A stretch of DNA of 63,868 nucleotides, from NCBI GenBank assembly GCA_902765395.1, contig CACWZP010000026.1:1-63868 (forward strand), in the 5' to 3' direction. Every line of letters starts with the position of its first letter. The first letter of the stretch is position 1. A model generated the notes under the pieces. That model was not told the DNA's origin. It saw nothing but the letters and a program-made list of their open reading frames with translations, and ran no database searches. The translations under genes were made by a program, and so were the position numbers. Positions 19,242-26,469 of the stretch are shown piece by piece. Source of the stretch: an uncultured Eubacteriales bacterium (GTDB lineage: Bacteria; Bacillota; Clostridia; Christensenellales; Aristaeellaceae).

Positions 19242-19775
19242 TCAGCCCTTCCAGGCGTGGAAGGCCTGCTTGTTGATGTCCAGCAGGTGGGCCTTGCGGC
19301 CGGAGAAGGTCTTCTCCATGATCTTGTAGATCATCTCCACCGGCACCACCGGCGCCACGCTCACCAGCGCGCCCAGCATCACCACGTTGGCGGTGCGGGC
19401 GTTGCCCAGCTTCATGGCGATGTCGTTGGCGGGCACGTAGTACACGTTGATGTCGTCGCGGGTGGGCTTCTGGTCGATCAGCGAGCTGTTCACGAACAGG
19501 TTGCCGCCCGGCTTCACCAGGGATTCAAACTTCGTCAGCGAAGGCAGGTTCATCACCACCACGTCGTCCGCCTCGTAGATCAGCGGGCAGGAGACGGGCT
19601 TGTCCGGGCTGATGACCACGGTGCAGTTGGCGGTGCCGCCGCGCATCTCCGGGCCGTAGGAGGGCAGCCAGGTGGCGTTCATGTCGGCGTACATGGCCGC
19701 GTAGGTCAGCATCTGGCCCATGGTCAGAACGCCTTGTCCGCCGGAGCCGGCGAAAAACAGCTTGGTCGTCGCCAT
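19242..19775 (-). CDS. 2-oxoacid:ferredoxin oxidoreductase, gamma subunit
   Basis: A 177-residue protein of the pyruvate/2-oxoacid ferredoxin oxidoreductase catalytic (gamma) domain: FFAGSGGQGVLTMGQMLTYA at the N terminus and TWLPSYGPEMRGGTANCTVV are standard. It is the last gene of a four-gene operon in the order 4Fe-4S, alpha, beta, gamma. The complex oxidatively decarboxylates a 2-oxoacid to acyl-CoA while reducing ferredoxin, or runs in reverse. Confidence 0.93.
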   Translation of the reverse strand: MATTKLFFAGSGGQGVLTMGQMLTYAAMYADMNATWLPSYGPEMRGGTANCTVVISPDKPVSCPLIYEADDVVVMNLPSLTKFESLVKPGGNLFVNSSLIDQKPTRDDINVYYVPANDIAMKLGNARTANVVMLGALVSVAPVVPVEMIYKIMEKTFSGRKAHLLDINKQAFHAWKG

Positions 19776-19776
19776 G

Positions 19777-20526
19777 TCACTCCGCCTCCTTCCCGGTGTC
19801 CTTGTACACGCCCAGCGGGTAGTAGGCGCACACTTCCTCGCGCATGCGCTTCATGGCGTCGGGTGGGGTGAGGCCCCAGTTGGTGGGGCAAGTGGAAAGC
19901 AGCTCCACGAAGGTGAAGCCCTTGCCGGCGATCTGGTACTCAAAGGCCTTGCGCACGGCCTTCTTGGCGGCGCGGATGCGGGCCGGGGAGTCCAGGGACA
20001 CGCGCTCGATATAGGCCGGGCCGTCCAGCGTGGCCAGCAGCTCGCAGATGCGCAGCGGCATGCCCGCCTGCTCCACGGTGCGGCCGTCCACGCAGGTGGT
20101 GGAGCGCTGGCCCACCAGGGTGGTGGGGGCCATCTGGCCGCCGGTCATGCCGTAGATGCCGTTGTTGATGAAGAACACGGAGAACTTCTCCCCGCGGGCC
20201 GCGGCGTGGACGATCTCGCCCATGCCGATGGAGGCCAGGTCGCCGTCGCCCTGATAGGTGAACACGACCTTGTCGGGATGCACGCGGCGGATGCCGGAGG
20301 CCACCGCCGGGGCGCGGCCGTGGGCGGCCTCGCACATATCCACGTTCATGAACTGGTGCGCCACGACGGAGCAGCCGATGGGCGCCACGCCCAGGGTGTT
20401 GCCCAGCAGGCCCATCTCGTCCAGCGTCTCCATGATGATGCGGTGTGCGACGCCGTGGGTGCAGCCGGGACAATAGCTGGTGCTGACGGGCAGCATACCC
20501 TCTGTTACGGTAAATACAGGTTTCAT
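19777..20526 (-). CDS. 2-oxoacid:ferredoxin oxidoreductase, beta (TPP-binding) subunit
   Basis: A 249-residue thiamine-diphosphate subunit. CPGCTHGVAHRII (cluster/cofactor region), TYQGDGDLASIGMGEIVHAA (GDG...N-type TPP motif, with NNGIYGMTGGQMAPTT supplying the Asn-Asn) are clear. The start overlaps the stop of the alpha gene by four bases (ATGA), and one base separates it from gamma. Confidence 0.94.
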   Translation of the reverse strand: MKPVFTVTEGMLPVSTSYCPGCTHGVAHRIIMETLDEMGLLGNTLGVAPIGCSVVAHQFMNVDMCEAAHGRAPAVASGIRRVHPDKVVFTYQGDGDLASIGMGEIVHAAARGEKFSVFFINNGIYGMTGGQMAPTTLVGQRSTTCVDGRTVEQAGMPLRICELLATLDGPAYIERVSLDSPARIRAAKKAVRKAFEYQIAGKGFTFVELLSTCPTNWGLTPPDAMKRMREEVCAYYPLGVYKDTGKEAE

Positions 20527-21599
20527 CGCACTTCCTCCAGTATTTTCATCGTCTTTTCGACCACCTCAATGGACGTGGGCAACATGCCGCCCACGCGGTG
20601 GATCAGCCTCACGGGCACGCGGTCCTTCACGCCCAGGTTGATGTCCTGCAGCATCTGGCCCATGCTCAGCTCCACGGAGACGACCGCCTTGGTCCTGGGC
20701 GAGATCCTGTCGAACGCGCTGTAGGGATAGGGCCACAGGCTGATGGGCCGGATCAGGCCGGCCTTGATGCCACGGGCCTCCAGCAGCTCCATGGCCTCGC
20801 GGGCCAGGCGCGCCATCGTGCCGAAGGCAACAAACACCACCTCGGCGTCCTCCAGGCCCTCGCACTCCACGCGCTCCAGTTCCTTTTCCATGACGGCGTA
20901 CTTCTCAAACAGGTGCTCCACGTGCTCTTCCAGCACTTCCGGCTGCAGCCGCAGGCTCTTGACCACGCTGCGGGTGCCCTTCTTGCTGCCGGAGATGGCC
21001 CAGGGCTTGGCGGTGGAGATCTCCTCGCTGGTGAAGGCGTGCTTCTCCTCGGGCAGCATCACGGGCTCCATCATCTGGCCCATCAGGCCGTCCGCCAGCA
21101 CCATGACGGGATTGCGGTACCTGTCGGCGATGGACGGCGCCTCGTAGAGGATGTCCACGGCCTCCTGGATGGACGCCGGCGCGAACACGGGGATCCTGTA
21201 GTCGCCGTTGCCGCCGCCGCGGGTCACCTGGTTGTAATCCGCCTGGCCGGGCTGGATGGAGCCGATGCCCGGGCCGCCGCGGGACACGTTCAAAAGCGTC
21301 ACCGGCACCTCCGCGCCGCAGAGGAAGCTCATGCCCTCCTGCATCAGCGCGATGCCCGGGGACGAGGACGAGATGAAGCACTGGCCGCCGGCCGCGCCGC
21401 AGCCGTAGGCCATGTTGATGGCGCCCAGCTCGCTCTCCGCCTGCAGGAACCGGCCGCCCCGCTTGGGCAGCTCCCGGCTCATGAACTCGGGAATCTCGCT
21501 CTGGGGGGTGATGGGATAGCCAAAGTAGAAACGCACGCCGCCGCGGATGACCGCCTCGGCGAAGGCCTCGTTGCCCTTCATCAATACCTTCTCGCTCAT
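20523..21599 (-). CDS. vorB: 2-oxoacid:ferredoxin oxidoreductase, alpha subunit (VorB-like)
   Basis: A 358-residue alpha subunit: GYPITPQSEIPEFMSR, QAESELGAINMAYGCGAAG and TLLNVSRGGPGIGSIQPGQADYNQ (part) are the family landmarks. The sequence resembles Clostridial proteins named VorB (3-methyl-2-oxobutanoate:ferredoxin oxidoreductase) more than KorA, so branched-chain 2-oxoacids are the favoured substrates; 2-oxoglutarate is the alternative. Four-base ATGA overlaps on both sides show tight coupling within the complex operon. Confidence 0.88.
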   Translation of the reverse strand: MSEKVLMKGNEAFAEAVIRGGVRFYFGYPITPQSEIPEFMSRELPKRGGRFLQAESELGAINMAYGCGAAGGQCFISSSSPGIALMQEGMSFLCGAEVPVTLLNVSRGGPGIGSIQPGQADYNQVTRGGGNGDYRIPVFAPASIQEAVDILYEAPSIADRYRNPVMVLADGLMGQMMEPVMLPEEKHAFTSEEISTAKPWAISGSKKGTRSVVKSLRLQPEVLEEHVEHLFEKYAVMEKELERVECEGLEDAEVVFVAFGTMARLAREAMELLEARGIKAGLIRPISLWPYPYSAFDRISPRTKAVVSVELSMGQMLQDINLGVKDRVPVRLIHRVGGMLPTSIEVVEKTMKILEEVR

Positions 21600-21829
21600 G
21601 CTTCCCCCTCCTCCAGCTGGTAGATCTCGATCGCGCAGTCAGGACACACCGTGGCGCAGCTCGCGCAGCCGATGCAGCTGTCCTGATCCACGATCATCGC
21701 GGGACAGTAGCCCTTGGCGTTCACCGTGGTGTCCATGGCGATGATCTGCTTCGGGCAGAAGCTCTTGCACAGCTCGCAGCCCTTGCAGCGCTCCCGGTCA
21801 AAGACGACCTTGAACCTTCTGTTTGCCAT
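21596..21829 (-). CDS. 2-oxoacid:ferredoxin oxidoreductase, 4Fe-4S subunit
   Basis: A 77-residue ferredoxin-like subunit with two clusters: CKGCELCKSFCP and CIGCASCATVCP. It passes electrons from the TPP site to ferredoxin. The ATG at 21829 follows AGGAGG by nine bases. It is the first gene of the oxidoreductase operon, 61 bases after the P-loop gene. Confidence 0.93.
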   Translation of the reverse strand: MANRRFKVVFDRERCKGCELCKSFCPKQIIAMDTTVNAKGYCPAMIVDQDSCIGCASCATVCPDCAIEIYQLEEGEA

Positions 21830-21890
21830 TATTGTAAGCCTCCTTGTATGGCAGGTTTCCATATCATGTAGGATTCAACAGTGCCGCTCC

Positions 21891-22607
21891 TTATTTGTCG
21901 ATCCATGACGGCCTCATGTACATTCCCACCGGCAGCAGGTGTTCATATTTTCCCTCCACCTGCTCCGCGGGCACGATGGGCGCCGGGTAGGTGTCGCACC
22001 ACAATATCTTGCCGGTCCTTTCGCACAGGGCCCTGCACAGCGCGTGGCCCTTTGCCACGCAGGCGGCGTCGGTCTCCAGCAGCAGATGGCAGTTGTTGAT
22101 CACGCCGTCGATGGCCCGGCCGGTCTTTCTCTCGATGGCCCGAAGGTGCTCAAGCGCCCCCTCCAGGTCCCGGGTCTCGGGGCGGTTGGCGTTCACCACG
22201 ATCAAAAACAGCGCGTCCTCCGGGGAGAAATACTTGCCGAACTGGTTCAGCACCACCGCGCCGGAGTCGTTGCCGCCCACGTCCACGATCACCCGGCAGT
22301 CCGCGTCCTCCAGCGGCGCGCGGATGTTCGCGCCCAGGGCGGGCAGCTCGGCGGTGATCTCGTGCTCGTAGGCGCTGCCGTACACCTTCACGCCCACGCT
22401 CTCCAGCGTCTCCCTTCTCTCCCGGGAGCGGAAGTAGGGGTTGGCGATGTCCAGGTCCACCAGGGCCAGCCTGTGATACGGGCCGAAGCCGTGCTTCGCC
22501 AGGGACATGGCCAGGCTGACGCAGAACTCCGTCTTGCCGCCGCCGTAGTGGCCGGTGACCACCATCACGCGCCGGTCGGGTTCGCGGATGCCGTTGAAGG
22601 GCTCCAT
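21891..22607 (-). CDS. P-loop ATPase linked to the VOR operon
   Basis: A 238-residue SIMIBI-like ATPase. Walker A is GHYGGGKTE (19-27); ALVDLDIANPYFRSRE and VIVDVGGNDSG look like Walker B/switch segments. The protein resembles MinD/CobQ-type ATPases found beside 2-oxoacid oxidoreductase genes in Clostridia. It is upstream on the same strand and probably co-transcribed. A role in complex maturation or regulation is possible but unproven. Confidence 0.7.
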   Translation of the reverse strand: MEPFNGIREPDRRVMVVTGHYGGGKTEFCVSLAMSLAKHGFGPYHRLALVDLDIANPYFRSRERRETLESVGVKVYGSAYEHEITAELPALGANIRAPLEDADCRVIVDVGGNDSGAVVLNQFGKYFSPEDALFLIVVNANRPETRDLEGALEHLRAIERKTGRAIDGVINNCHLLLETDAACVAKGHALCRALCERTGKILWCDTYPAPIVPAEQVEGKYEHLLPVGMYMRPSWIDK

Positions 22608-22622
22608 GCGCCTCTCCTCCCC

Positions 22623-23678
22623 TCAGTCCAAATAGCCGGTCTCCCGAGGCTTGCCGTCCTGCTTCACCCGCAAAGTGGCCGGAAGGGCCGGGGCCGTGGC
22701 GTTGAAGCCGTCGCCGCCGGAGCGAAGATACACCGCGTCGGCATTCAGGCTCTTGAAATCGCAATCGAAGCGCACGTTTTGAGCGCCGTTTTCCGGCAGG
22801 TGGTTTCTGATCTCATAGCCATCCAGCGACCGCCAGCGTCCGAAGAGGGCGCGCCGGGCATAGTAGCCGCGCAGCTGACAGCCACGCATCGCGTTGCCTC
22901 CCAGCCAGTCCTCCAGGAAGAAGCAGTCCCAGGAGAAGCCCAGCTTCGGCGCGGGATACGCGATCGCCGCCAGCTTTTCCCAGCCGCCGTCCGCCGCCTT
23001 CACCCACTGCTCGTACACCGTCCGCCGACCCACGGTGCGGGCCTGTATGCGCATGGTGTACCACACGCCAATCCGCCACGGATAGTCCGTCAGCACATGC
23101 ACGCCGCTGCCCTCGCCGCCGAACGGCTCCACCACGGCGCCGCTTTTGGCGTACTCCACGGTGGGCCTGCCGCGATCGGTGTTCCACAGGGAGAGGATCG
23201 CTATGCCCTTGCCCCGGCAGAACTGAAAGCCCGCGTAGCCGGAGCCGGGGGCGATGCCCGCATAGCCGTCGGCGCTGCTGTACCAGTTGTGCAGGCAATA
23301 GTAGGTGTTGTCCGCCTGCTGAACGCACCGCCACTGGCCTTCCACCGCGTCATAGAGCGCGCCGTCCGGCCGGTACAGCGTGACCGACAGGTAGGGCGCG
23401 GAGCGGGGGTGAACGTCCGGCATCCACTGGGCCACGTAGACGATGGAGAGCTCGTTGCAGGGGGCGGTCGTCCACTCCCCCGCGCCTTCCAGCGGATGGT
23501 TTGCCGCGTCCCCGCCGCAGATTCAGCCGATGAAGCGCCAACCCGGGCGAACGGGAATCGCGGCGGGATGGCGAAAGCGGACCGCGCCGCTTGCGTCCGG
23601 CCTGGCCTCCAAGGGATTCACGTCCCCGGTGCCGCCGTTGAGCTGATAGTAGATCGTCAGGGGTCTCCGCCTCGCATC
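22623..23678 (-). pseudogene. DUF3472 / InlB B-repeat surface-protein remnant with internal stop
   Basis: The main reading frame from 23522 down encodes a DUF3472-like domain (GGYAGF-type segment, EYAKSGAVVEPFGGEGSG, WRIGVWYTMRIQA). Upstream in the same frame lies TIYYQLNGGTGDVNPLEARP and PGWRFIG, an InlB B-repeat (Flg_new) ending where the family has Trp, but the codon at 23523-23525 is TGA instead of TGG. A further in-frame TGA at 23679-23681 leaves no good start or signal peptide, so the 5' end is also missing. A GTG at 23435 could still start a 270-residue protein without a ribosome site. I read it as a decaying gene. Confidence 0.65.
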
Positions 23679-23825
23679 TCACGGACTTTTGTTTCTATAA
23701 ATCTATCAGCATTGCCGCCGCTTGTCAAGTCGGCCCGACGGGATTTATCCGAACGTTTTCCTGAAATTCCTACATAATATTCGCGCGTATAGCCGAACGC
23801 AATACAAATTTAACGCGCAAAAGCT

Positions 23826-23854
23826 TTGACATCTGCGCGCCGGAGTGATAGAAT
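23826..23854 (+). promoter_or_regulatory. promoter of the T-box leader
   Basis: TTGACA (23826-23831), 17-base spacer, TAGAAT (23849-23854): near-consensus. Confidence 0.85.
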
Positions 23855-23861
23855 AACCGCA

Positions 23862-24162
23862 ATCGAATATATCCCAAAGGCGATGACGAAGACGGCGGAG
23901 CCAATCGGTGCCCAGAGAGCCGGCCACCTGCTGAAAGGCCGGACACAGGTTGCTCACAAGCCCATCCCTTCCGAGCCGGAAGCCCGAACGACCTTCCATT
24001 ATGGAAGATTCAAGTAGACGCTTCCCGTGAAAGCTGCGTAAAGGCACAGGGCTTGATGGAGCCTGAAGGGGCACGGCAACGTGCAATTTGAGTGGTACCG
24101 CGGGTTGATTGCGACTCGTCTCAAAGAACGCGCAAGCGTTCGTGTGAGGCGGGCGTTTTTTT
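23862..24162 (+). promoter_or_regulatory. T-box riboswitch (probable isoleucine specifier)
   Basis: The leader contains a long Stem I with GCGATGACGAAGA, CCAGAGAGCCGG and GCTGAAAGGCCGG, the conserved T-box AGTGGTACCGCGG (24091-24103), and a terminator (CTCGTCTCA 24115-24123 with TGAGGCGGG 24145-24153, then seven Ts ending at 24162). T-boxes bind uncharged tRNA and antiterminate. The triplet ATC at 23964-23966, placed six bases before the GAG of the Stem I base strand, fits the specifier position and would select tRNA-Ile; this reading is tentative. Confidence 0.88.
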
Positions 24163-24235
24163 ATGCGACACTCCCCCAGGACTTTATCTTATATTCGATC
24201 ACCCCGGTACTATCGAAGCGAGGAGGAATTTCCCA

Positions 24236-25252
24236 ATGAACACAACCGACATGACCGGCATGCTGTATGAAGTCGGCACCCGTATCAAGGCCCTGCGGGA
24301 GATCGCGGGCTATTCCGTGGTCTACATGGCCGACCAGACCGGCCTGGACGTGGAGACCTACATCGAATACGAGGCCGGCCGGGCCGACCTGCCCTTCACG
24401 TTCATCCACAACTGCGCCCGCATCTTCGGCGTGGACATCACCGACCTGATCGAGGGCCGCAGCGCCAACCTGCGCTCCTACACCGTCACCCGCAAGGGCG
24501 AAGCCACCATCACCACCCGGCAGGAGGGCATCGAGATCTCCAGCCTGGCGCCCATGTTCTCCGGCAAGATCGCCGAGCCCTTCTGGGTCACCTACAGCTA
24601 CTCCGAGGAGCTGCAGAACCAGCCCATCCACACCCACGCCCACTCCGGCCAGGAATTCGACCTGATCCTCTCCGGCGAGCTGCTGGTGCGCATCGGCGAC
24701 CACGTGGAACACCTCCGGGAGGGCGACAGCATCTACTACGATTCCTCCACCCCCCACGGCGAAATCGCCACCGGCGGCAGGGACTGCACCTTCGTGGCCG
24801 TGGTGCTGCCCGGAGAGGAGACGGAAGAGGACAAGCTGGTGGACGCCGTCATGCCCGTGCGCCTGCCCAAGCAGAACATGATCTACGACCGGTTCGTGGA
24901 CCTGGACGAGGACGGCGAGGGCCACCTGCAGCACATCGCCTTCCCCAATTCCGACCACTTCAACTTCGCCTTTGACATCGTGGACCGCCTGGCCGAGCGC
25001 AAGCCGGACAAGCTGGCGATGCTGTATGTGGACCGCTACATGAACGAGCAGCGCTTCACCTTCGAGGACATCAGCCGCAAGTCCAACCGCGCCGCCAACT
25101 ACTTCAAAGCCCTGGGCATCAAAAAGGGCGACCGCGTGATGCTGGTGCTGCGGCGCAACTGGCAGTTCTGGGTGGTGATGATGGCGCTGCACAAGCTGGG
25201 CGCGGTGGCCATCCCCGCCACGAGACCGCCGGCGTCACCGCCATCTGCATGA
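24236..25252 (+). CDS. HTH-cupin-acyl-CoA synthetase, N-terminal part (frame broken)
   Basis: The 338 codons encode an XRE helix-turn-helix (about residues 10-60), a cupin domain (about 130-190, with HTHAHSGQEFDLILSGELLV and TPHGE), and the beginning of an AMP-forming acyl-CoA synthetase (ADE-fold ligase) reading to AVAIPAT. The frame then runs into a short unrelated tail and stops. The rest of the enzyme continues in another frame from about 25222. Start is certain: AGGAGG nine bases upstream of ATG. Expression is under the T-box leader. Fusing a sensor/regulator module to its enzyme is unusual. The break may be a real mutation or a sequence error. Confidence 0.8.
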   Translation: MNTTDMTGMLYEVGTRIKALREIAGYSVVYMADQTGLDVETYIEYEAGRADLPFTFIHNCARIFGVDITDLIEGRSANLRSYTVTRKGEATITTRQEGIEISSLAPMFSGKIAEPFWVTYSYSEELQNQPIHTHAHSGQEFDLILSGELLVRIGDHVEHLREGDSIYYDSSTPHGEIATGGRDCTFVAVVLPGEETEEDKLVDAVMPVRLPKQNMIYDRFVDLDEDGEGHLQHIAFPNSDHFNFAFDIVDRLAERKPDKLAMLYVDRYMNEQRFTFEDISRKSNRAANYFKALGIKKGDRVMLVLRRNWQFWVVMMALHKLGAVAIPATRPPASPPSA

Positions 25253-26469
25253 CCCATGACGGCGAAGGCGCGGCCCACGCCGAGGAGGCCTTCGAGACCT
25301 GCCCCTATGTGAAGACGCGCATCATGTGCGGCGGCAAGCGGGAGGGCTGGCGCGACTTCGACGAGGAGTACCTGCGCTATCGCTCCACCTTCAACCGCAC
25401 CGAGGACGCGCCCAGCGGCGACGACCCCATGGTGATGTTCTTCTCCTCCGGCACCACCGGCTATCCCAAGCTGGCCATGCACAGCCACAAGTATCCCCTG
25501 GGCCACTTCATCACCGCCCACTACTGGCACTGCGTAGAGCCGGACGGCCTGCACTTCACCATCTCCGACACCGGCTGGGGCAAGGCGCTGTGGGGCAAGC
25601 TGTACGGGCAATGGATGAACGAGTGCGCGGTGTTCGTGTACGACTTCGACCGCTTCAACGCCCACGACATCCTGCCGATGTTTGCCAAATACAACATCAC
25701 CACCTTCTGCGCGCCGCCCACCATGTACCGCTTCCTGATCCGCGAGGACATCTCCAAGTATGACCTCTCGAGCATCAAGTGCGCCTGCACCGCGGGCGAG
25801 GCGCTGAACCCCGAGGTGTTCAACCTGTTCAAGAAGACCACGGGCCTGTCCATCATGGAGGCCTTCGGCCAGACGGAGACCACGCTGGTGCTGGGCAACT
25901 TCGCCGGCACCACGCCGAAGATCGGCTCCATGGGCAAGCCCAGCCCGCTCTTCGACGTGGACCTGGTGGATCCCAACGGCAATCCGGTGAAGGCCGGCGA
26001 ACCGGGCGAGATCGTCATCCGCACGGACAAGGAGATCCCCGCGGGCCTGTTCCTGGGCTACTACGGCAACCAGGAAGCCACCGACACCGTGTGGCACGAC
26101 GGCCTGTACCACACCCGCGACATGGCATGGCGGGATGAGGACGGCTACTTCTGGTACGTCAGCCGCACCGACGACGTGATCAAGTCCTCCGGCTACCGCA
26201 TCGGGCCGTTCGAGATCGAGAGCGTCATCATGGAGCTGCCCTACGTGCTGGAGTGCGGTGTGTCCGCCGCGCCGGACGAGATCCGCGGCCAGGTGGTCAA
26301 GGCGTCCATCGTGCTCACCAAGGGCATCGAGGGCACCGAGGAGCTCAAGAAAGACATCCAGAACTACGTGAAGAAGCGCACCGCGCCCTACAAGTACCCC
26401 CGCATCGTGGTGTTCCGGGACGAGCTGCCCAAGACCATCAGCGGCAAGATCCAGAGGAACAAGCTGTAG
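25249..26469 (+). CDS. acyl-CoA synthetase, C-terminal part (frame broken)
   Basis: This 406-codon frame holds the rest of the AMP-binding enzyme: ATP-binding motif FFSSGTTGYPK (65-75), acyl-site and adenylate motifs (CTAGEALNPE, EAFGQTETT), the hinge-type WYVSRTDDVIKSSGYRIGPFE and the C-terminal ISGKIQRNKL with the catalytic Lys. In-frame codons start at about 25222 (ETAGVTAICMT). Compared with related enzymes, a dozen or so residues expected between AVAIPAT and ETAGV are missing, so the frame shift accompanies a small deletion. By family resemblance it activates a short- or branched-chain acid to its CoA ester. Confidence 0.8.
   Translation: MTHDGEGAAHAEEAFETCPYVKTRIMCGGKREGWRDFDEEYLRYRSTFNRTEDAPSGDDPMVMFFSSGTTGYPKLAMHSHKYPLGHFITAHYWHCVEPDGLHFTISDTGWGKALWGKLYGQWMNECAVFVYDFDRFNAHDILPMFAKYNITTFCAPPTMYRFLIREDISKYDLSSIKCACTAGEALNPEVFNLFKKTTGLSIMEAFGQTETTLVLGNFAGTTPKIGSMGKPSPLFDVDLVDPNGNPVKAGEPGEIVIRTDKEIPAGLFLGYYGNQEATDTVWHDGLYHTRDMAWRDEDGYFWYVSRTDDVIKSSGYRIGPFEIESVIMELPYVLECGVSAAPDEIRGQVVKASIVLTKGIEGTEELKKDIQNYVKKRTAPYKYPRIVVFRDELPKTISGKIQRNKL

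Follow-up and report, generated by a model that had tools for sequence, protein, structure and literature searches.

What might an RNA that responds to uncharged tRNA be doing in front of an acyl-CoA synthetase gene? The question is raised by a contig of 63,868 nucleotides (CACWZP010000026.1, assembly GCA_902765395.1) from an uncultured Eubacteriales bacterium of the Aristaeellaceae. We refer to the whole contig as the window. Between positions 19,242 and 26,469, a T-box leader precedes a gene encoding an acyl-CoA synthetase fused to helix-turn-helix (HTH) and cupin domains, and an operon for a VOR-type ferredoxin oxidoreductase diverges from it. T-boxes switch genes on when the cognate tRNA is uncharged and, therefore, the synthetase should supply the amino acid. 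We consider it likely that the locus serves T-box-controlled salvage, in which branched short acids are turned into isoleucine and valine by reductive carboxylation. The T-box, its specifier, the association of synthetase and VOR genes, and a link between specifier codon and enzyme residue were all computed.

The T-box leader and its specifier

The elements of the leader, and of the gene that follows it, are listed below.

23874-24126, plus strand: T-box leader RNA, from Stem I to the antiterminator (RF00230, 60.5 bits, E 2.2e-12 in a 1.2 kb stretch, model positions 1-219 all matched)
23964-23966, plus strand: specifier codon ATC (Ile), as given by a position rule that was calibrated on genes of known name in this genome
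24093-24102, plus strand: T-box motif UGGUACCGCG with UGGU bulge, read from the sequence (UGGU in 133 of 133 motif matches of relatives)
24111-24156, plus strand: intrinsic terminator hairpin, then a U run (-26.9 kcal/mol, z -3.39)
24236-25252, plus strand: HTH-cupin-acyl-CoA synthetase fusion, first part, interrupted (Pfam HTH_31/HTH_3, Cupin_2 and AMP-binding)
25249-26469, plus strand: acyl-CoA synthetase, second part, in another frame (AMP-binding and AMP-binding_C; best NCBIfam match MbcS, 349.8 bits; best solved structure 3etc, 495 bits)
25579-25581, plus strand: Gly codon of TGW-G-K, from the translation; this residue separates Ile-type from Val-type enzymes

A T-box at this place had been claimed in a preliminary description of the sequence, and a covariance-model check bore the claim out. 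The match to RF00230 is full-length, and comes with T-box motif UGGNACCGCG and a terminator. Note that its score is below the RF00230 gathering score of 93, and that a scan of the window at the gathering threshold did not return this leader. When the window's own genome was searched, 16 T-boxes were found at E <= 0.001, with four over the cut-off. The window leader (E 1.4e-12) is the sole T-box of its contig. Among relatives, leaders at three loci score above 93 bits (L037, 102.2; L038, 95.7; L144, 98.1). The UGGU bulge suits a tRNA with A as discriminator base. In place of the consensus AGUA, the specifier loop has, on its 5' side, ACGG or similar in the window (23880-23967) and in the Ile-type leaders of relatives, and AGGG or similar in Val-type leaders. 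By eye, some Ile-type leaders have a possible short extra helix (GGC/GCC or GGTC/GACC) beside the specifier. The window leader is predicted to bind uncharged tRNA and to act by antitermination.

To read the specifier we took the three bases preceding one base and the lower stem. Nearly the same rule is given in the accessible text of the T-box database paper (PMC7778990). In the window, the specifier loop has ACAAGCCCATCC on its 3' side, followed by lower stem CTTC. Applied to named genes of the same genome, the rule gives ATC for ileS, GTC for valS, CTC for leuS, ATG for metG, TTC for pheS, ACC for thrS, GCC for alaS and AAC for asnB. Upstream of hisS-aspS it gives GAC, which suits the second gene. 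The leaders of ileS, thrS, alaS and asnB were read by eye. So were L089, L091 (ileS) and L092, where the automatic rule was mis-anchored; the rule run did not include L099-L101. Because the 3' side of the loop is longer than in the Rfam consensus, GCC (Ala), CCC (Pro) and CAT (His) were also considered. These readings were rejected: the bases before ATC vary in relatives, ATC is constant, and the rule suits the named genes. ATC is unchanged across an alignment of 19 leaders, from the window and 18 congeners, and in distant Ile-type relatives it stays constant as the preceding bases change. The specifier of the window leader thus reads as isoleucine, as had been supposed, rather than an unrelated amino acid.

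Ile-type and Val-type fusions

The fusion named in the preliminary description was recovered with HTH, Cupin_2, AMP-binding and AMP-binding_C domains, although in the window its open reading frames are split across different frames. A close copy is present in 25 congeners; its frame is open over at least 758 amino acids in 22 of them and runs off a contig end in three. One of the 22 (G026/L041) has a frame change close to the C-terminus. MbcS (NF047394) is an equivalog model with a cut-off of 850, missed by the second part in the window and by intact relatives (462 and 449.3 bits).

We surveyed homologues in 150 related genomes and in a wider set of loci. The HTH-cupin part, used as a query, had matches in 123 of the 150 genomes, including short-frame HTH-cupin proteins without a synthetase. 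A covariance-model scan of fusion loci found a T-box in 31 of 31 (18 + 13). The wider set comprises L039-L078 and L102-L181, the named-contig scan having kept 80 of at least 592 relatives; many record titles of those kept refer to gut samples of goat, sheep, yak, buffalo, deer or cattle. The same species may be present in both sets, and the rows are related by kinship. The fusion reaches the N-terminus in 119 of the 120 wider loci. There are 159 fusions, 156 of them longer than 600 amino acids, and a T-box motif is upstream of at least 132 of these 156. One of 133 motif matches (L109_6015) was dropped, being inside coding sequence. The count of 132 is a minimum, since L061_6165 is missed by an exact-motif search and yet carries a Stem I, with ATC; it is counted as Ile in the tree described below. 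The association of such fusions with T-boxes, on which the preliminary description had staked its interpretation, is therefore widespread. In L174, L175, L177, L179 and L180, where the fusion has the Ile-type Gly residue, the adjoining 460 bases lack a T-box motif and the stretch lacks VorA.

Two SPECIFICITIES were read among the 132 leaders: 85 have ATC (Ile) and 47 have a Val codon (41 GTA, 5 GTC and 1 GTG). Such third-base variation is expected of a true specifier. The script read 125 of the codons; seven leaders with unusual lower stems, each ATC, were read by eye. Since the best BLAST hit failed on distant rows, proteins were typed by trees. In a tree that covers 50 fusions, proteins with a Val specifier group in a single clade with support 100/100 (15 Val and three without a leader). 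The Ile clade has support 100/98 (27 Ile and two labelled leaderless, one of them, L049, wrongly), and one Ile row is basal. Exceptions to the split into two clades by specifier are the deeper Ile rows and L178. At loci with two fusions, the Ile-type gene precedes the Val-type gene in 37 of 37 cases (11 + 26), with spacings of 9-2237 bases. A search of the window's own genome found no Val-type paralogue.

Does the codon correspond to anything in the enzyme? We compared alignment columns for proteins of at least 700 amino acids, grouped by leader codon only (84 Ile and 45 Val), with the outlier L178 set aside. A single column of 755 is fully disjoint. It is the x of TGW-x-K, and is Gly in 84 of 84 Ile proteins and Ala in 45 of 45 Val proteins. 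The nearest solved enzyme to the fusion synthetases is 3ETC (625 bits), the medium-chain acyl-CoA synthetase MacsMa of Methanosarcina acetivorans. According to the accessible text on this enzyme, 2-methylbutyrate is its preferred acyl substrate and Trp259 is critical for substrate binding (PMC10455477). Our numbering was anchored, via alignment, on Gly459-Tyr460-Lys461 of the same paper. The disjoint column would then be Gly255 of MacsMa, four residues ahead of Trp259. Ala in place of Gly would fit a smaller pocket, for isobutyrate rather than 2-methylbutyrate. Numbers of MacsMa acyl-pocket residues besides Trp259 and Trp414/Trp416 were not used as evidence. Pocket residue and specifier together suggest selectivity of the fusion enzymes for 2-methylbutyrate or isobutyrate.

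The outlier is informative. L178 has GTA and Ala and a T-box of 76.4 bits, yet by FastTree lies within the Ile clade, next to L131 (ATC and Gly). The genomes of L178 and L131 each hold two copies, about 68% identical: L182/L183 have GTA/Ala and L184/L185 have ATC/Gly. Therefore, codon and residue have made a joint switch twice: once in the large Val clade and once in the lineage-specific duplicate represented by L178.

Neighbouring genes and the predicted direction of the pathway

The operon that diverges from the fusion gene comprises the following.

19242-19775, minus strand: VOR gamma subunit (TIGR02175, 89.5 bits, cut-off 81.1)
19777-20526, minus strand: VOR beta subunit, thiamine diphosphate binding (TPP_enzyme_C; TIGR02177, 104.3 bits against a cut-off of 261.9)
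20523-21599, minus strand: VOR alpha subunit, VorB of NF005507 (470.4 bits, cut-off 399)
21596-21862, minus strand: VOR delta subunit, a two-cluster ferredoxin (Fer4 domains; TIGR02179, 40.9 bits against a cut-off of 60.05)
21891-22607, minus strand: P-loop NTPase heading the vor operon (the window copy has no family match; the L050 homologue is weakly ParA/NUBPL)

The divergent VOR-type operon of the preliminary description does have four subunits in one operon (19242-21862). The alpha-subunit model is over its cut-off; beta and delta match 2-oxoacid oxidoreductase models below theirs. A DUF3472 gene and the P-loop NTPase gene precede the vor genes. The P-loop gene is present in 55 of 119 loci, mostly heading the vor operon, and vor is divergent in the window and in eleven congener loci. 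Among homologues, the fusions are associated with vor genes: VorA is in the same stretch at 54 of 119 loci, and at 33 of 37 loci with two fusions.

Locus L050 is the most complete. On a single strand it has a LeuA-like gene, a TIM-barrel-synthetase, an Ile T-box with fusion, a Val T-box with fusion, IlvE (TIGR01123, 398.9 bits, cut-off 250), the P-loop gene, VorD, VorA (the VOR alpha subunit; 566 bits with the VorB model), VorB and VorG. Genes for activation, 2-oxoacid oxidoreductase and transaminase thus occur together in L050; the window was found to have the synthetase and VOR alone. L102, L105 and L140 also have ilvE with vor.

The acids used, the direction in which VOR runs and the role in the cell are inferred. 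The Ile T-box would read uncharged tRNA-Ile, so that transcription continues into the HTH-cupin-acyl-CoA synthetase. The enzyme would convert environmental 2-methylbutyrate to 2-methylbutyryl-CoA, which the neighbouring VOR would reductively carboxylate to 3-methyl-2-oxopentanoate. A branched-chain transaminase would then yield isoleucine. The paralogues with Val T-boxes would take isobutyrate to valine by the same route. For isoleucine and 2-methylbutyrate, this is what the preliminary description had envisaged, and it is supported by the Ile specifier, the association of fusions with T-boxes and vor, and the substrate preference of 3ETC.

Some support also comes from ilvC, which is over its cut-off in 45 of 150 genomes. 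The gene is missing in 46 of 55 genomes with the fusion, compared to 59 of 95 without (Fisher p 0.006); when the genus is excluded, the figures are 25 of 29 and 57 of 93 (p 0.013). The list of fusion genomes for this test was made by hand, leaving out G062 and G078 (weak matches in long frames).

Several observations weigh against salvage. The ilvC contrast is weak, kinship is a confounder, and ilvC is present in the genome of the window itself. The synthetase gene in the window is interrupted; either the pathway may be inactive in this genome or the assembly may be at fault. A readable T-box motif of its own is missing before 24 of the 156 full-length fusions. Eight of these are the second of a pair (L058, L062, L109, L126, L127, L130, L137 and L141), and start 9-101 bases behind the first, so there is no space for a leader. 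Five more, the fusions of L174, L175, L177, L179 and L180, have records titled Ruminococcus or Bacillota. VorA is in the fetched stretch at only 54 of 119 loci, many stretches being short or cut, and IlvE-like genes are at 18 of 119. Since 102 of 150 related genomes have VorB over its cut-off, little can be read from finding the gene in a genome, and what counts as evidence is its adjacency. Finally, the tree requires only two codon-residue switches, so the cross-table does not represent 132 independent cases.

Could the synthetases have a different purpose? The main rival is that they make the branched acyl-CoA primers from which branched-chain fatty acids of the membrane are built, the role of MbcS in Staphylococcus aureus. 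Shortage of isoleucine or valine would be shortage of primers too, so the T-boxes would be sensible without any amino acid synthesis. The best NCBIfam match, MbcS, has this very role (PMC10026030), and VorA is missing from the fetched stretch at 65 of 119 loci. Even so, we regard primer supply as unlikely, given the VorA genes at most two-fusion loci, the four loci where ilvE accompanies vor, and the many fusion genomes that lack ilvC. A double role would be compatible with these points. The cluster might instead be catabolic, with IlvE and VOR oxidising branched-chain amino acids and the synthetase releasing or recycling the acids. Enzymes of the VOR family are reversible, and such genes are used in amino acid fermentation elsewhere. 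However, a T-box that acts at amino acid scarcity has the wrong sign for breakdown, AMP-forming synthetases spend ATP, and paralogues with matching specifiers suit supply. A catabolic role is, in our judgement, highly improbable.

A further explanation requires no function for the link between codon and residue. Leader and enzyme may simply be joined in one operon lineage, with Gly or Ala a clade marker unrelated to substrate. Our sets are related and may overlap, and two changes per state suffice for the tree, as this explanation would have it. Conversely, the second change of codon and residue falls inside the Ile clade, and the one disjoint column is four residues from Trp259 of MacsMa. Hence, we consider shared descent alone quite improbable.

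Other T-box targets and comparison with known systems

Salvage of isoleucine and valine precursors may be part of something larger. The preliminary description missed this wider set, in which the present locus is one arm and other acyl-CoA synthetases have T-boxes for Val, Leu and perhaps Tyr. In the window's own genome, locus L085 (C9, 3391-7716) has a CTC (Leu) T-box, then a LeuA-like gene and a gene in which a synthetase is joined to a barrel resembling xylose isomerase (AP_endonuc_2). Such LeuA-like/barrel-synthetase pairs also occur in L050 (2962-7018), L115, L119, L121-L123, L156, L181 and others. A T-box motif is upstream of 17 of 30 LeuA-like matches from related loci and L085, and all 17 specifiers read CTC or CTG; the motif search found none before the LeuA-like gene of L050. 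The HxH motif is the metal site of isopropylmalate synthase. It is absent from 20 of 20 aligned LeuA-like sequences; the LeuA_dimer domain is kept in the L061 protein. Locus L086 (own genome, C2, 3571-6886) has a TAC (Tyr) T-box, then two AMP-binding genes, the second PaaK-like by look and with AMP-binding_C_2. This is possibly a tyrosine arm that would start from 4-hydroxyphenylacetate. We lean towards a salvage regulon of gut Clostridia, in which Ile, Val, Leu and perhaps Tyr T-boxes would each control their own acid-activating enzyme, and 2-oxoacid oxidoreductases would be shared. With codon and pocket residue having switched together at least twice, the codon would predict the substrate.

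Other T-boxes of the genome have different targets. At L089 (2594-4473) and L092 (3010-4332) these are a sodium/solute symporter and a MocR/aminotransferase-like gene (both TAC, the first by eye). At L096 (2467-4068) and L098 (6322-8011) the specifiers are both TGG, before a gene for a TrpX-like transporter (216 bits, short of its cut-off) and one for a TrpB-like enzyme. Elsewhere in the window are a SAM riboswitch (1389-1501, 80.8 bits) and, on the minus strand at 101-528, five tRNA genes (Lys, three Gly and Leu).

That microbes of the rumen require branched short acids as precursors of amino acids is long established, and the supply of these acids is a practical matter in ruminant feeding. 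It would be useful to know which microbes use them, and under what control. Our analysis yields candidate genes, a substrate prediction for each gene from an RNA codon, and one residue to mutate. The regulatory sign distinguishes synthesis from breakdown, and acyl-CoA synthetases are added to the targets of T-boxes. Because RNA codon and enzyme residue change jointly in relatives, the predicted pathway is directly testable. Our literature search found no report on T-boxes and branched-acid acyl-CoA synthetases, which is weak evidence of absence since most subscription journals were outside its coverage. Within the same limited coverage, no named, regulated branched-acid activating enzymes for rumen amino acid synthesis were found.

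How does the locus compare with known systems? Ruminal bacteria make parallel use of branched acids for amino acids. Rumen methanogens use them for isoleucine and leucine synthesis, although the accessible text of that study does not name dedicated T-box-controlled synthetases (PMC10658910). MacsMa and the fusion enzymes have GW-G-K in common, as well as the Trp in the WGK that comes next (Trp259 by our numbering). MacsMa differs in being archaeal, and its chain of 580 residues has no space for an HTH-cupin part. We know of no T-box for MacsMa. MbcS of S. aureus is related and also AMP-forming. It activates both 2-methylbutyrate and isobutyrate, according to the accessible text (PMC10026030), and feeds fatty acid synthesis, whereas two specialised paralogues are predicted here. 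Known T-boxes (RF00230) control tRNA ligases, biosynthesis and transporters, and have a Stem I with AGAGA loop, a specifier, a UGGN motif and a competing terminator, as do our leaders. Their specifier agrees with the amino acid served by the gene product (PMC2494555). The leaders described here depart from the AGUA consensus, and their target is an acyl-CoA synthetase fused to HTH-cupin, the predicted entry step of salvage.

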